A stretch of DNA of 21,397 nt from a virus. Both the position numbers and the translations under genes were made by a program. Below the pieces are notes generated by a model that saw nothing but the letters and a program-made list of their open reading frames with translations, ran no database searches and was not told where the DNA came from. Where the stretch lies: positions 1 through 21,397 of the IMG/VR virus record IMGVR_UViG_3300008216_000102. The stretch is one strand, 5' to 3'. Shown here piece by piece: positions 1,400 through 18,984 of this stretch (position 1 is its first letter; the number at the start of each line of letters is the position of its first letter).

Positions 1400-3145
1400 A
1401 TGCCAATCTATCGTTCTGATCAGGCACAATTAACTTTTGCTGTAGAAGCTGCTCCTGGGGGATACCCAGAGTTGGCTTCTGCTGTAACTCTTGCTACAAG
1501 TGGTGATGCGGGTGAATGCGCTATTAACCTTGTGGCTGGGGTACCAGCGGGTTCTCGTTCTTTGACTGTAGATGGTATGGCTGCTGATGAATTTGTAGCA
1601 GGGGATTTGATTGTAATTGGGACTACTGCGACTGAATCTTCTGAAATACGTAGGGTAGAATTTGTAGATGGAACTACTGGTTTGGTACTTGATACTCCCA
1701 CAGGATTTTTTCACGCTAACAATACAGTAATTAAGATAATTACTGCTGTAACCGATACTGATGCTGACAAGTATATTACGTTTGTTCCTGGTGTATATGA
1801 AACTGTTGAAGTTCCAGACCCTGAAATGGCGATTGAGCCTAGATATTACCTAGGAACTGCTTCTAAACGTAATCCTTATCAATTTTTAAAGGGTCAACAA
1901 ACTTTTACGGGCAGTTTGGGTGGGATGGTGTTGTTAGATGGTAGGGCTTTACGATTTCCTATAGGTCGAGTTAATACTACAACTACCTTTGTTAATACAG
2001 CGGGGTCAACTGACCCCACTTATGGAGCTTTAATTAATAATACTGCTGGATATAAGAAGGGTGATGTTTTTGTAACGGTAGATACTGCGTGGGCAAGTGT
2101 TCCTGTTGGAGCTAGACTCCTTTTCACAGGTTCAACAACCGCAGCGACAACGAGTTCAACTACATCTGAAGTACGTAAACATGTAGGTGCTGCGTCAGCG
2201 ACTGCTTTACGATTAGATGCTCCCCTGCAATTTGACCATGCAAATAATGAATATGTATATGCAATAGTAACTACAGCAGGGGGAACAACTGTTCAATCAG
2301 ATGCACAAAACCCCACAACCTTGATTCCATTCACTCATACTATTACAGAAACGGTAGATTTGGACTCTGTTTCTTGGCATCTACATGTTAGAGATAGCTC
2401 TGAAACAGATGCGAATGACTTTGACCGTAGATATCATGGAGGAAAGATTGGGAATATTTCATTAAGTGCCGAAGAAGGTGGGTTATTGACCTGTGGATGG
2501 GACGGAGTTAATTTCTTAGGTATGAATCATAATCAATCTGCCCATAGTGGGTTTACTGGAAATCTTCCTTCCTATACTTTAATGCAACCTATTAGGGATG
2601 GCAATGTTTCTGCCCCAGGAACCATTAATTCGGGTGCAACTGCGGAACCTTATTACTTCTCTCAAGGACAAGTAACATTATTTGGGTCAGTGATTGCTAG
2701 AGTGAGAAGCTTTAGCTTATCTATAAATAATAATGAAGAACCTAGGTATTATCTACGCAGGACTATGGGAAGGCATCGTGGCCCCTCAGAGATATTGGAA
2801 CAACGTAGGGAATATACTTGTTCTGTAACTCTAGCCCTACCTGATGCAACGACAAATTCATCTTCGGCTATTAGTGTCTTTAAAGAATTACTCTTAGAGG
2901 GTGATTATGGGAGTGGTATGGAGGGATTTAATATTGAACTTAGATTCGATAGAGGTGCTAGTGATAATATAATAATCACCATTCCTAATGATGGAGCAGC
3001 GGGTGTTGGGGGGAATAACCAAGGAGCATTTCTTAATACGGCACCCCATAATATTTCAGAAGCAAATCCAATGGAAGTTGAAGCAGAAGTATTGTTTAGA
3101 AATTTGAAAATTGAAGTTAATGATAATATAGGAGTTTACCCATAA
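1400..3145 (+). CDS. Major tail tube protein, internally duplicated
   Basis: A 581-residue protein in the major tail protein position, preceded by GGAGG at 1391-1395 and followed directly by the tail chaperone pair. It appears to hold two related tube domains. EPRYYL occurs at residues 146-151, followed by an FLKGQQTFTGSLGG strand, and again at 447-452, followed by ILEQRREYTCSVTL. Two further related modules, about 41-117 and 211-292, share a TVD...F/V-V-G...GTTA...E-R-V...LD-P...F-HANN pattern, with HANN at 105-108 and 280-283; these look like inserted beta domains. Single tube proteins are usually 150-350 residues, so the length fits a fusion. Phage T5 pb6 is a known duplicated tube protein that forms trimeric rings; the same arrangement here is inference. 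A tail sheath is less likely because no separate tube gene follows. Confidence 0.65.
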   Translation: MPIYRSDQAQLTFAVEAAPGGYPELASAVTLATSGDAGECAINLVAGVPAGSRSLTVDGMAADEFVAGDLIVIGTTATESSEIRRVEFVDGTTGLVLDTPTGFFHANNTVIKIITAVTDTDADKYITFVPGVYETVEVPDPEMAIEPRYYLGTASKRNPYQFLKGQQTFTGSLGGMVLLDGRALRFPIGRVNTTTTFVNTAGSTDPTYGALINNTAGYKKGDVFVTVDTAWASVPVGARLLFTGSTTAATTSSTTSEVRKHVGAASATALRLDAPLQFDHANNEYVYAIVTTAGGTTVQSDAQNPTTLIPFTHTITETVDLDSVSWHLHVRDSSETDANDFDRRYHGGKIGNISLSAEEGGLLTCGWDGVNFLGMNHNQSAHSGFTGNLPSYTLMQPIRDGNVSAPGTINSGATAEPYYFSQGQVTLFGSVIARVRSFSLSINNNEEPRYYLRRTMGRHRGPSEILEQRREYTCSVTLALPDATTNSSSAISVFKELLLEGDYGSGMEGFNIELRFDRGASDNIIITIPNDGAAGVGGNNQGAFLNTAPHNISEANPMEVEAEVLFRNLKIEVNDNIGVYP

Positions 3146-3154: not shown

Positions 3155-3544
3155 ATGCCAGCAAAAAGCACAGTAGAGACAGTACAATTCGACTTTAAGA
3201 AGTATACCCTTAGTGCGGAGCCAACGAAAAAAGTTTTAACTATCGAAGAAACTGGGGAATCTTTTGAAGTAACAGTTAAACCATTATCTTGGGCTAAACG
3301 TAATCAAATGATTTCAGCTAGTTTAAATTTTGGTACGGATGGGGCTACAGGGTTTGATGGTGATGGGTATGTAAGAGGGTGTTTGAAAGAAATGGTTATA
3401 GACGCTCCGTGGGGGCGTACTACAGAAGCCTTCTTACTAACTATTGATGAACGATTAGGAACTGCCCTAGAAACGCTAGTTCCTAAAGCTTTTGGGGGGA
3501 GTGACGCTGAGACAGTAGATATAGATAATGTAAAAAAAGAGTAA
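3155..3544 (+). CDS. Tail assembly chaperone, short form (gpG-like)
   Basis: A 129-residue protein between the tube and tape-measure genes, the standard place for the gpG-like chaperone that coats the tape measure before tube polymerisation. The visible pattern is an N-terminal beta part (LTIEETGESFEVTVKPLSW) followed by helices, similar to many gpG-type proteins. The zero frame ends in V-K-K-E-stop over a slippery A AAA AAA stretch at 3532-3538. A -1 shift there joins residue 128 to the next frame, giving a 203-residue long form with the 3544-3765 sequence as its C-terminal part. Function is assigned by position and the frameshift hallmark; sequence similarity alone would not prove it. Confidence 0.72.
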   Translation: MPAKSTVETVQFDFKKYTLSAEPTKKVLTIEETGESFEVTVKPLSWAKRNQMISASLNFGTDGATGFDGDGYVRGCLKEMVIDAPWGRTTEAFLLTIDERLGTALETLVPKAFGGSDAETVDIDNVKKE

Positions 3545-3592
3545 TGGCTTTCTTATCTGGGGTAGGAAATACACCCCAGTATGAAGCCATTG
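3532..3592 (+). promoter_or_regulatory. Programmed -1 ribosomal frameshift signal (slippery heptamer plus two-stem RNA)
   Basis: Slippery heptamer A AAA AAA at 3532-3538, in the correct register (gtA AAA AAA gag taa). After a 5-base spacer (GAGTA, 3539-3543) comes an RNA stem-loop. Its outer stem pairs ATGGCTT (3544-3550) with AAGCCAT (3584-3590), extendable by A3543-T3591. Its inner stem pairs CTGGGGT (3557-3563) with ACCCCAG (3573-3579) around a 9-base loop. A -1 slip reads AGA GTA ATG straight into the second chaperone frame. The outer stem also covers that frame's own ATG, so folding may suppress independent initiation. Confidence 0.8.
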
Positions 3593-3765
3593 CTTATTAT
3601 CACTGGCTAATAATGTTACAATTATTAGAAGTTGGAATATCGTGGGACGCAATTCAAGAGATGACTGAGAATCAAATTCATATGTTATTAGGTGTCGTAT
3701 CAGCCAGGAAGCAGAAGGAAGCAGATGCTCAAGCCCGTTCTCAGGCATCCCAGATGAGGATGTAA
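3544..3765 (+). CDS. Tail assembly chaperone, frameshift extension (T domain of gpGT-like fusion)
   Basis: 73 residues from the ATG, or 75 added residues (R, V, then M...) when entered by -1 frameshift. It is in the -1 frame relative to the upstream chaperone, which is the phasing of lambda gpG-gpGT. The sequence is helical (YEAIAYYHWLIMLQLLEVG, then an EMTENQIHMLL helix) and ends in a charged, Gln/Ala-rich tail. In known systems the T part recruits the tube protein to the tape-measure complex. The ATG overlaps the upstream stop as TAATG, so low-level independent initiation cannot be excluded, but it sits inside the predicted stem and lacks a strong ribosome binding site. I expect the main product to be the fusion. 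Confidence 0.7.
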   Translation: MAFLSGVGNTPQYEAIAYYHWLIMLQLLEVGISWDAIQEMTENQIHMLLGVVSARKQKEADAQARSQASQMRM

Positions 3766-3768
3766 TAT

Positions 3769-5472
3769 ATGGCGACTGATGCGACCGAATTTGTTTTAAG
3801 GGTACTCGCTGGTTCGGAAAGTAGCTTGGGTGGTGGTGAATCTGCTCAAGGTGGTGGTTCGGGTGGTGCGTCTAAAGACCTAAACGCTATTCAGCGGGAA
3901 TTAACCAAGTTAAATAAATCTACCTCTAAAGGTGTAGGGGCTACCCTAGGTATAAAACTGGGTACTGCTTCTATCCTTAAACAATCCCAGGTCTTTACAG
4001 GATTCGTAGGAACCATCTTCCAATTGATGGGTGCTATGGTAGACGTTATCTTAGCTCCATTCCTCCCCGTTCTAATTCCTGCCATTCGTAAGATGGCAGA
4101 ATTGATTCCTTATATGGCTAAGTACGCCCAAAATATCTTTGACTTCCTAGATAGGACGTTATTTGAGTGGCTACGTGGTGGTATAGATAGCCTTTTACCC
4201 GAAAAATTTAAAAATGCTATTGTTCCTGTATTAGCTGCCTTTTTGGTTGGGGCGTTCTTCCTTAAAATGACGGGTTTATGGAATCCATTTTTTGCACTTA
4301 TGAAGAATTTTGTAGCTAAACCATTGTTTGCTGCACTTAAGCACTTTATTGCTAGACCTTTATGGGGCATAATTAAAACTTTTATTGCGAAACCTATATG
4401 GGGGATATTAGTAGAAAGATTTGCCATGTTTAAAAGGTGGGATGCCTTTTTTAGTGAAGGATTTAAGAAAGGGATAAAAGCAGTCTTAGGAGATGTGTGG
4501 GAGAATACTGGTGGAAAAGTATTTAGCTTTCTTAAGAAGAGTTTCACGACATGGTTGGATGACATGGGCAGAATTGGTAAGACGGTGCTTGGGTTTATAT
4601 TCAAGCCTATCTGGGCGATTGCAAAACCTATACTTTTAGGGATTGATAACCTTGCTAAGAAAATCCCATCAAGGCTAGGTACATGGATATGGCACCTTAT
4701 ATCTGGGCCTTTTAAGGCTTTCATTAAGGTACAAAAAGGAAGTATAATTGATAGATTTGTTGCCTTTTTTAAAAATATATATAGGAACACAATTAAAGGC
4801 TTGGTGGATTCAATAAAGGGGATAGTGGGTGACTTTATAACTTGGGTTGCCGGAAGGATTGTAGAGGTAAAAAATGCAATTGGGTCTGTAGCGGATGACT
4901 TGATAACTAAGTTTAAGGGTACTGGACTTTGGAAATTGGCAGTTAAATTTTTTGGTAAAGGTACGCTGGTTGGAAAGGCAGCAGGGCTAGTTGGAAGGGC
5001 AGGGGCAGCAGTAGGAGGAAAACTTAAAAGTGGTATGACCCCTAATGTAGGTAAGGGATTTAAAGTCTTGGGAATGTCTATGAAGGGTGTTCCTATTATC
5101 GGCGCAGTAGCAGAATTAGGTTTTGGAGGATGGGCAACATATCAAGACTTTCAAAAATATGGTGCAAAAGCAGCTGGGGCAAGGGCGGCTTTAACTTTAG
5201 CTAATACAGGGGCTGCTTTGATAGACCCAACAGGTCTTGCTTCCGCAGGAGTATCTATAGGTAGCAACGTAGCATTGAGCTATGGTATGAGTAAGAAGTT
5301 TGATGTAAAAAAAGAGTGGGCAATGCAAAACCAAGACCAAGTAATAATAATTAGGACTCCAGGTCAGGCAGATAGATACGTAATGAAAAACAACGTAGAC
5401 GCAGATCAAGGAATTAATGTGGCACTAGGAATGGAATTGGATAGAGCGGATTTAAATTCCGAATTAGGATAA
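3769..5472 (+). CDS. Tail tape-measure protein
   Basis: A 567-residue helical protein directly after the chaperone pair, with GAGGA at 3756-3760 eight bases before the ATG. Residues ~20-37 are a Gly/Ser linker. Next come hydrophobic helices (LMGAMVDVILAPFLPVLIPAI and IVPVLAAFLVGAFFLKM) and then three 12-residue repeats (residues 180-215). The C-terminal third is Gly/Ala-rich and hydrophobic (VPIIGAVAELGFGGW; LIDPTGLASAGVSIG), as in tape measures thought to enter the host membrane during DNA delivery. Tape measures set tail length at about 0.15 nm per residue, so ~85 nm is a rough inference; this is short for the family. No peptidase or lytic transglycosylase motif is seen. GTAAAAAAAGAG at 5305-5316 repeats the bases around the chaperone slippery site, in the same register. 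Confidence 0.8.
   Translation: MATDATEFVLRVLAGSESSLGGGESAQGGGSGGASKDLNAIQRELTKLNKSTSKGVGATLGIKLGTASILKQSQVFTGFVGTIFQLMGAMVDVILAPFLPVLIPAIRKMAELIPYMAKYAQNIFDFLDRTLFEWLRGGIDSLLPEKFKNAIVPVLAAFLVGAFFLKMTGLWNPFFALMKNFVAKPLFAALKHFIARPLWGIIKTFIAKPIWGILVERFAMFKRWDAFFSEGFKKGIKAVLGDVWENTGGKVFSFLKKSFTTWLDDMGRIGKTVLGFIFKPIWAIAKPILLGIDNLAKKIPSRLGTWIWHLISGPFKAFIKVQKGSIIDRFVAFFKNIYRNTIKGLVDSIKGIVGDFITWVAGRIVEVKNAIGSVADDLITKFKGTGLWKLAVKFFGKGTLVGKAAGLVGRAGAAVGGKLKSGMTPNVGKGFKVLGMSMKGVPIIGAVAELGFGGWATYQDFQKYGAKAAGARAALTLANTGAALIDPTGLASAGVSIGSNVALSYGMSKKFDVKKEWAMQNQDQVIIIRTPGQADRYVMKNNVDADQGINVALGMELDRADLNSELG
4306..4413 (+). repeat. Three tandem 12-residue (36-base) repeats in the tape-measure gene
   Basis: Units encode NFVAKPLFAALK, HFIARPLWGIIK and TFIAKPIWGILV (residues 180-191, 192-203, 204-215). 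The shared pattern is x-F-[VI]-A-[KR]-P-[LI]-[FW]-[AG]-[AI]-[LI]-x. A partial unit (WNPFFALMK) precedes them and a related FKPIW occurs later. The codons differ between units, so the repeat is old or held by selection on the protein. Confidence 0.7.
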
Positions 5473-11171: not shown

Positions 11172-11744
11172 ATGGATATTACAGACGATTTAATAATTCA
11201 ATGGGAACCCAAGATACAGAGGTTTTTAAATACATCCTTTGTATTGGGCATGGATAGGGAAGATTTAGGACAAGAATTACGGATTGCAATTATAAAAGCT
11301 GCGGATGGGTTTGATGAATCTAGAGGAACTTCTTTTCATACGTATTTACATACAACAATGGTGAATACATTACGTACTTTAATCTCTAAGGCTCAAAAAC
11401 AGCACTTTATTCATGAAGCAGCTAGTATAGATTCTTCCTATGCGTATGATATTTCTTCAGAAGATACAAATTATTCTCCAACATCCTCTAAAATTCTTAA
11501 AGCTTTAGAAGACCCCATTACAAAAAATAAAGATCAAGAATTTGAAGTCCAAGATCTGTTGATTAGATCTAAGTTAAGCCCTTCTGAGATCTCATTTGTT
11601 AATTTACGTATTGAAGGACTTACTATGGAAGAAATTACTGATGAATTAAATGAATCTTCTTATAAGTTACGTCATAGTTCTAAAAGAAAATTGGAAAAAT
11701 ACTTAACTAACGTTAATTGGTTAGGAGATGGTGATGCCAACTAA
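11172..11744 (+). CDS. Phage-encoded sigma-70 family RNA polymerase sigma factor
   Basis: 190 residues with an ATG after GAGGGAGG (11161-11168). Residues 28-72 (DREDLGQELRIAIIKAADGFDESRGTSFHTYL in outline, then TLRTLI) match sigma region 2: the acidic DLGQE core-binding helix, the FDESRGTSFHTYL aromatic/basic segment for -10 recognition, and the following helix. Residues ~125-178 match region 4, with a helix-turn-helix (LTMEEITDELNESSYKLRHSSKRKL in outline) for the -35 box. There is no region 1, and region 3 looks reduced or absent (a ~50-residue polar linker), so this is a small two-domain factor. It would redirect host polymerase to phage promoters, probably of a later class. No anti-sigma gene is evident. 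Its end overlaps the next gene by 11 bases. Confidence 0.78.
   Translation: MDITDDLIIQWEPKIQRFLNTSFVLGMDREDLGQELRIAIIKAADGFDESRGTSFHTYLHTTMVNTLRTLISKAQKQHFIHEAASIDSSYAYDISSEDTNYSPTSSKILKALEDPITKNKDQEFEVQDLLIRSKLSPSEISFVNLRIEGLTMEEITDELNESSYKLRHSSKRKLEKYLTNVNWLGDGDAN
11722..11727 (+). promoter_or_regulatory. Ribosome binding site deciding the start at 11734
   Basis: TAGGAG ends immediately before ATG 11728 (no spacing) but six bases before ATG 11734, so 11734 is the better start. Confidence 0.5.
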
Positions 11745-17466: not shown

Positions 17467-17728
17467 AATCGTTCAAGAGTATGTTCTAGAAGATGTTAAA
17501 GAAGAGAGGGAGCGTCAAGACATTAAATGGGGTGACCAAATATCTAATTCACATGAATTGTGGAATGTAATTGGAGTAGAAGAAGTGGGAGAAGTGGCTA
17601 GGGCTATTTATGAGGCAGATAATATAGAGCATTTATACAATGAAATTATTCAAGTAGCTGCGGTTTACGTGGCTTGGGCTGAAAGTATAAAACGGTGGGA
17701 GGAAACTTGCTTTGAAACACACAGCTGA
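17453..17728 (+). CDS. MazG-like nucleotide pyrophosphohydrolase
   Basis: 91 residues, start ATG 17453 with GAGGTG at 17440-17445. The pattern EERERQDIKWGDQ, then VEEVGEVARAIYE (Glu43, Glu44, Glu47), then EIIQVAAVYVAWAES (Glu64) matches the all-alpha NTP pyrophosphatase (MazG/dUTPase-like) superfamily, where these acidic residues bind magnesium. The expected Asp of the usual EExxD second motif is not present: Glu64 is followed by IIQVAA, as in a phage subgroup that keeps one acidic residue. It would hydrolyse a nucleoside triphosphate to the monophosphate, perhaps dUTP or a damaged base, or an alarmone; substrate cannot be read from sequence. It overlaps genes on both sides (14 and 17 bases). 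Confidence 0.7.
   Translation: MKGSKIVQEYVLEDVKEERERQDIKWGDQISNSHELWNVIGVEEVGEVARAIYEADNIEHLYNEIIQVAAVYVAWAESIKRWEETCFETHS
17697..17702 (+). promoter_or_regulatory. Ribosome binding site supporting a TTG start for recA
   Basis: GGGAGG nine bases before TTG 17712. No in-frame ATG is close by, so TTG 17712 is the best-supported start of recA. Confidence 0.5.
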
Positions 17729-18740
17729 GGATGTTATTAACCAATTGTTAGGAGATAAGGATTTAGACTTACGAAGGGGAAGTAGTTCAGAGTTTAGTTA
17801 TGGACGAATTCCTTTTGGTATACCTGCCTTAGACCGTTTGACGGGTGGTGGGATACCTAAAAAGAGAATGACTATCCTATACGGGCCAAATAACGTAGGT
17901 AAATCTTATCTGGCTTCTCAGATATGTAAGAATGTTCAAGCTGAAGGTGGAACGGCTGGATGGATTGATACGGAATTGTCTTGGGATCATGAATGGATGG
18001 CGAAGTGTGGTGTGGATGTAGAAAATATTCTAGTGGCTCAACCCTCTACAGGAGAGAAAGCTTTTGGTATAGCTAGTCGTATGATGCAAGCAGGAGTTGG
18101 GGTAATTGTATTAGATAGTATAGCAGGGCTTGTCCCGGCTGCTGTACTGGAGCCAGCTAAAACGAAGACGGTAGAGGAGGATTTTAGTTATAATCCAATG
18201 GCATGGCAAGCCAGGTTTATTAATTCATCCCTCCCTAGATTATTGCCCAATCTACAAGAAGGGTCAGCATTTGTAGCTATTAATCAAATGAGAACAGGGC
18301 TTGGTAAGGTAGCATTAGATACTATGCCAGGAGGATTAGCGCAAACTTTCTTTGCCCATTTCTTGTTACAGGTACGTAGAGTGGGGTGGTTGGAAACATC
18401 TGATAAAGAGAAGATTGGTTTTGACATGGAAATACGTTTGAGGAAAACTAAAGTGGGTGGTGAGAACTGGAAGTCAGCTATTGTACCTTTTAAAGTAGAT
18501 GGTGGTATTGATATAATTGAAAGTTATATGCGGGATGGATTAGCTGAAGGCTTGATAGATAAGAAAGGGGCTTGGTATACTTATAAGGAACAACGGGCAC
18601 AAGGTATGAATGGGTTGAAAACATTGATGGTAACTAATGAAGTATTATTTGCCACGCTTGTAGCTGAATTAGGGGGAAAAGATGCTATTACCGAAGGATT
18701 ATACACAGCAGGAGAAGAAGATAGCGAATTGCCTGTCTAA
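17712..18740 (+). CDS. recA: RecA/UvsX-type recombinase
   Basis: 342 residues from a TTG start (GGGAGG upstream), near the ~350 of bacterial RecA. Walker A GPNNVGKS spans residues 58-65, the DTELS segment holds Glu88 in the position of the RecA catalytic Glu, and Walker B GVIVLDSIAGLVP ends near 142. The L2 region has NQMRTGLG (Gln192) and PGGLAQTFFAHFLLQVRR, the counterpart of RecA's GGxALKFYASVRL. The C-terminus is acidic (AGEEDSELPV), as in bacterial RecA. It should form filaments on single-stranded DNA and exchange strands. Its last 59 bases overlap the DUF559-type nuclease gene in the +1 frame. A slippery-looking G GGA AAA lies in register at 18674-18680. UvsX-like is an equally good label. 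Confidence 0.9.
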   Translation: MKHTAEDVINQLLGDKDLDLRRGSSSEFSYGRIPFGIPALDRLTGGGIPKKRMTILYGPNNVGKSYLASQICKNVQAEGGTAGWIDTELSWDHEWMAKCGVDVENILVAQPSTGEKAFGIASRMMQAGVGVIVLDSIAGLVPAAVLEPAKTKTVEEDFSYNPMAWQARFINSSLPRLLPNLQEGSAFVAINQMRTGLGKVALDTMPGGLAQTFFAHFLLQVRRVGWLETSDKEKIGFDMEIRLRKTKVGGENWKSAIVPFKVDGGIDIIESYMRDGLAEGLIDKKGAWYTYKEQRAQGMNGLKTLMVTNEVLFATLVAELGGKDAITEGLYTAGEEDSELPV

Positions 18741-18984
18741 CTTAGGGTTAAGATACACAGAACAATTTAATATTCTTAAATATACAGTGGACTTCTGGAT
18801 ACCGGAGTTAAGTATTGTCATTGAAGCAGATGGTCAGGTAGGTCATTTAAGGAAAGCTGATGCTAAACGGGATGCTGAATTACTAGCGGGACAGGATACT
18901 AAGATATCTCAAGTAGTGCATATTTCGGCAACAGATGTCCACGTAATTATGGAGGAACTATGTCAGGTGTTAGACAAATTATAA
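18682..18984 (+). CDS. DUF559/Vsr-like endonuclease
   Basis: 100 residues from ATG 18682, with AGGGGGA at 18671-18677 inside the recA gene as ribosome binding site. The sequence follows the DUF559/very-short-patch-repair nuclease pattern: a TQQEKKIANCLSNLGL helix, YTEQFNI, YTVDFWIPELSIVIEADG with catalytic Asp and Glu-x-Asp, GH, RDAELL, then a VVHISATDV strand. This is the restriction-endonuclease-like core, with residues ~37, 48 and 50 as the likely metal-binding acids. The first helix is part of the family pattern, so the long overlap with recA is likely real and not a misplaced start. It probably cuts DNA during recombination or repair; the specific substrate is unknown. Its end overlaps the next gene by 25 bases. 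Confidence 0.72.
   Translation: MLLPKDYTQQEKKIANCLSNLGLRYTEQFNILKYTVDFWIPELSIVIEADGQVGHLRKADAKRDAELLAGQDTKISQVVHISATDVHVIMEELCQVLDKL

Follow-up and report, generated by a model that had tools for sequence, protein, structure and literature searches.

The locus studied here raises the question of how the second tail assembly chaperone domain of a phage is produced: from a start of its own, or as the end of a longer protein made by ribosomes that change frame. It lies in a record of 21,397 bases (the whole stretch analysed, hereafter the window), which is probably a fragment of a tailed phage. An earlier note on this DNA had proposed a complete -1 programmed frameshift signal, i.e., a slippery heptamer with a two-part RNA stem behind it, linking two tail assembly chaperone frames.

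Gene neighbourhood and protein identity

The first frame, TAC1 (3155-3544, plus strand), encodes the zero-frame product of 129 aa, and profile and fold matches mark it as a gpG-like tail assembly chaperone 1. Upstream lies the gene for the tail tube protein (1400-3145, plus strand; Pfam Phage_tube_2, E 4.9e-12), and downstream, behind the second frame (TAC2), the gene for the tail tape measure protein (3769-5472, plus strand; phrog_1272, E 1.1e-5). That is, the gene order is tail tube, TAC1, TAC2 and tape measure.

We have found PHROG tail assembly chaperone matches for 13 of the 15 TAC1 family members (best E 5.4e-5). In addition, the AlphaFold model of TAC1 (moderate confidence, pLDDT 63) matches, among viral structures, the tail assembly chaperones of Haloarcula hispanica tailed virus 2 (HHTV-2) and of Bacillus phages. 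Judging from this model, the closest named counterpart may be gp47 of HHTV-2 (best fold match, E 7.9e-6), for which the likeness in sequence is weak (27.5% identity, E 0.06, found with the relative L048). Unlike the window phage, HHTV-2 is an archaeal virus, and it is annotated with separate gp47 and gp48. The top fold match in the PDB is B. subtilis YqbN (3klu, probability 0.95, with a weak E of 0.14), which likens TAC1 to the XkdN-like proteins (phrog_389). Searching the PDB by sequence with TAC1 returned chance matches only (E >0.4), and the TAC1 query gave no match against named phages. For TAC2, there is no PHROG or Pfam match and no fold match with E <0.5.

The HHTV-2 match prompted the consideration of an archaeal host, which was set aside, since the sigma-70, DnaG, DnaB, RecA and PolA genes of the window, which also encodes ThyX, point to a bacterial host. 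When genome contigs were scanned with the TAC1 alignment, no relative in a prophage came up; the TAC2 alignment was too variable for such a scan. Two other genes deserve mention: a protein with sigma-70 region 2 (11172-11744, E 2.1e-10) may direct late transcription, and a DUF559 (endonuclease-like) ORF at 18682-18984 shares 59 bases, in another frame, with the end of the RecA-like gene at 17712-18740.

The slip site and its conservation among relatives

The ORF 3155-3544 ends with GTA AAA AAA GAG TAA, which puts positions 3532-3538 (plus strand) in the A_AAA_AAA register and confirms the slippery heptamer that the earlier note had placed there. The slip site of lambda is G GGA AAG, as against A AAA AAA here. 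After a slip, the -1 frame continues as AGA GTA ATG GCT and gives K-K-R-V-M-A-F-L over the junction; it is open from 3529 to 3765, and the claimed entry into the second chaperone frame holds as well. This frame, TAC2 (3538-3765, plus strand), consists of 75 codons and a stop, and is a putative gpT-like second chaperone domain with a helical model (pLDDT 86). In the predicted fusion, TAC1 contributes 128 residues and the second frame 75, ~203 aa in all. The window has three A7 runs, and its genes hold 43 in-frame X XXY YYZ heptamers, of which the one at 3532-3538 is alone in having a -1 frame that runs on for over 25 codons, here 75.

Relatives were collected as TAC1 matches from two IMG/VR scans, and identical junctions were removed. 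The resulting set has 69 distinct junctions, namely the window and 68 relatives, in 50 clusters at 70% TAC2 protein identity; counts over loci are inflated by relatedness, for which this clustering is a partial correction. From the contig names and the sample sets that they denote, we take the clade to be marine. A tandem-slip heptamer is in register in all 69 junctions, 3-15 bases before the zero-frame stop. Actually, 67 of them have A AAA AAA, while the other two have A AAA AAC (L040) and T TTA AAA (L022), which are natural swaps at the same site that still fit X XXY YYZ. In every relative, no stop interrupts the -1 frame across the junction, and it leads into a conserved Trp-containing domain, and an ORF of 253-706 codons follows TAC2 in 68 of the 69 cases, the contig ending in the remaining one.

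The codon before the two lysine codons shows how narrowly the site is kept. Its third base is A in 68 of the 69 junctions, compared with ~30 expected from the codon usage of the same genes, the only other base being the T in T TTA AAA. Since this A is kept although the residue varies among I, V, L, A, K, T and N, the constraint is on the nucleotide and not on the residue.

Between the heptamer and the conserved TAC2 Trp, no ATG, GTG or TTG is found in 21 of the 69 junctions (15 of the 50 clusters at 70% identity), the closest relative (L003/L018) among them. In these 21, TAC2 can be made only as a fusion, because no start codon precedes the conserved Trp. Relatives without the heptamer and the stem but with both frames kept as separate genes, a pattern that the earlier note had named as speaking against its proposal, were not found among the 68. 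The window itself has an ATG (3544-3546, plus strand) that overlaps the zero-frame stop as TAATG and is a possible reinitiation start; it recurs at the junction codon in 22 others (23/69) and is not conserved. With an ATG in only 23 of 69 junctions, the suggestion that the outer stem hides the internal start does not stand as a family feature or a general function.

RNA structure downstream of the slip site

In the window, a hairpin (3539-3595, plus strand) follows the heptamer, as supported by folding, a family-level helix excess, and outer-stem pairing above shuffles. Its outer stem has 7 bp (3544-3550 with 3584-3590) and can be lengthened at either end, and its inner stem pairs 3557-3563 with 3573-3579 (7 bp). 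The region 3539-3620 folds at -30.9 kcal/mol, compared with -16.5 +/- 3.2 for shuffles (z -4.5). As stable a fold arises in 0 of 200 dinucleotide shuffles and in 0 of 300 sequences under a protein-preserving null (z -3.7). In the MFE fold, pairing begins at 3539, down to which the outer stem is extended; therefore, the spacer of 5 bases given in the earlier note is valid only if the lowest pairs are counted as melted in the ribosome.

We have further examined the structure across the family. In the 66 bases after the heptamer, the folding energy is below that of synonymous resampling (mean z -1.05, with 30% of loci at p<0.05), while control windows give -0.19. In the -1 frame, the helix formed by bases about 5-22 with bases about 37-58 is stronger than the protein-preserving null predicts (mean z 1.09 and Fisher p 9.8e-9 over the 50 clusters, of which 28% have p<0.05), and the identical test at four downstream control offsets is flat. 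The base-pair-probability version of this test is marginal (Fisher p 0.055), and ~70% of the relatives are without an individually significant stem. Stem pairs were counted in a codon-based alignment of 34 gap-free clusters, the MAFFT DNA alignment of the junctions being too gappy. The outer stem is paired at 0.658 in these clusters, versus 0.603 +/- 0.015 in shuffles, and also above slid registers. As for the co-varying stem bases that the earlier note had called for, double changes in the outer stem are in excess (21 versus 15.3 +/- 3.0), but they are as numerous in the registers shifted by +1 and +2.

A test for conservation of the inner stem in its exact form was negative, with pairing at chance level (0.420 versus 0.417 shuffled). 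The two-part stem thus exists in the window with both of its 7-bp parts, but the inner one is not conserved, and only the outer helix, with a drifting register, has a family signal. A putative stimulatory structure at about 5-9 bases downstream is present in the window and as an excess in the family, but not in every relative. Overall, the data are best read as selection for a helix here, one whose register drifts and which many members of the family lack.

How the second domain is made, and what it means

Based on the above analyses, we hold it to be very probable that a lambda gpG/gpGT-type -1 programmed ribosomal frameshift signal joins TAC1 and TAC2, the slippage and the fusion being predicted. 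This reading is supported because the heptamer is universal in the set, a synonymous site is constrained, 21 junctions offer no usable start, and the helix is selected at the RNA level; -1 frameshifting explains the heptamer, its register, the synonymous constraint, the missing starts and the helix all together. Most ribosomes would read GTA AAA AAA GAG TAA through to the stop, yielding the 129-aa chaperone. A smaller share would pause at the hairpin, and the two lysyl-tRNAs on A AAA AAA would move back together by a single base, after which translation would go on in the -1 frame and give the ~203-aa fusion. By analogy with lambda (roles reviewed in PMC5009743), the short form may coat the tape measure protein, and the fusion may recruit tail tube subunits.

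TAC2 could also arise without frameshifting, if ribosomes stopped at the TAA and restarted at the overlapping ATG to make a separate 73-aa protein. TAATG stop-start overlaps are indeed frequent at other junctions of the window (917, 6032, 13238 and 14825), suggesting general translational coupling, and the ATG at the junction codon in 23 of 69 junctions agrees with this; yet the 21 junctions without a start before the conserved Trp include the closest relative, the heptamer and the synonymous X base in it persist with or without the ATG, and no clear Shine-Dalgarno precedes 3544, whereas 3155 has AAGGAGG. We regard reinitiation as a very unlikely explanation of the junction; where the ATG is present, it may supply some free TAC2 as well. 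For this subset, it seems rather improbable that one segment yields TAC1, the TAC1-TAC2 fusion and free TAC2 by TAATG reinitiation, with the hairpin shifting the balance between fusion and free TAC2.

Slippage of the polymerase, by which the A7 run would gain or lose bases and the mRNA itself would be in the other frame, is hardly credible. The homopolymer is there, and longer runs (n>7) have been tied to polymerase slippage (PMC3711429), but most runs here have just 7 A, which is the low end, and L022 (TTTAAAA) and L040 (AAAAAAC) have no 7-A run and still retain a tandem ribosomal slip site. Moreover, polymerase slippage would work without the ribosomal register and without a helix in the RNA downstream. 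Both processes may contribute a little in the window beside the ribosomal frameshift.

Long-tailed phages widely share the gpG/gpGT arrangement of lambda (PMC5009743), in agreement with the earlier note. As in lambda, the present signal lies between the tail tube and tape measure genes and would act in the -1 direction near the end of the first gene. The second domain, which normally has no start of its own in the lambda kind, is without one in 21 of the 69 junctions; unlike lambda, the window carries an additional ATG where the first frame stops, and the protein sequences are not recognisably related. In E. coli, A_AAA_AAA is far less shift-prone than A_AAA_AAG (PMC5009743), while a 7-A A_AAA_AAA cassette of another gene family gave 10% frameshifting, and tested tail chaperone genes 6-7% (PMC3711429). 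The identical heptamer letters, AAAAAAA, have been proposed as the frameshift site for tail assembly proteins in Paenibacillus larvae phages (PMC6256562), which are other phages and where the prediction came from annotation and not from a comparative test. The exact signal was new to the earlier note, but its heptamer is an already known site (PMC3711429), proposed before for tail assembly genes (PMC6256562).

The known mechanism is unchanged, and what is new is its setting, an undescribed, uncultivated marine phage clade without a close named relative. The tail-chaperone frameshift is extended to this large clade, which also provides a comparative data set with an almost invariant slip site and an RNA helix whose register drifts under coding constraint. 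For annotation, TAC2 of these contigs would be the terminal part of a fusion and not a gene of its own.
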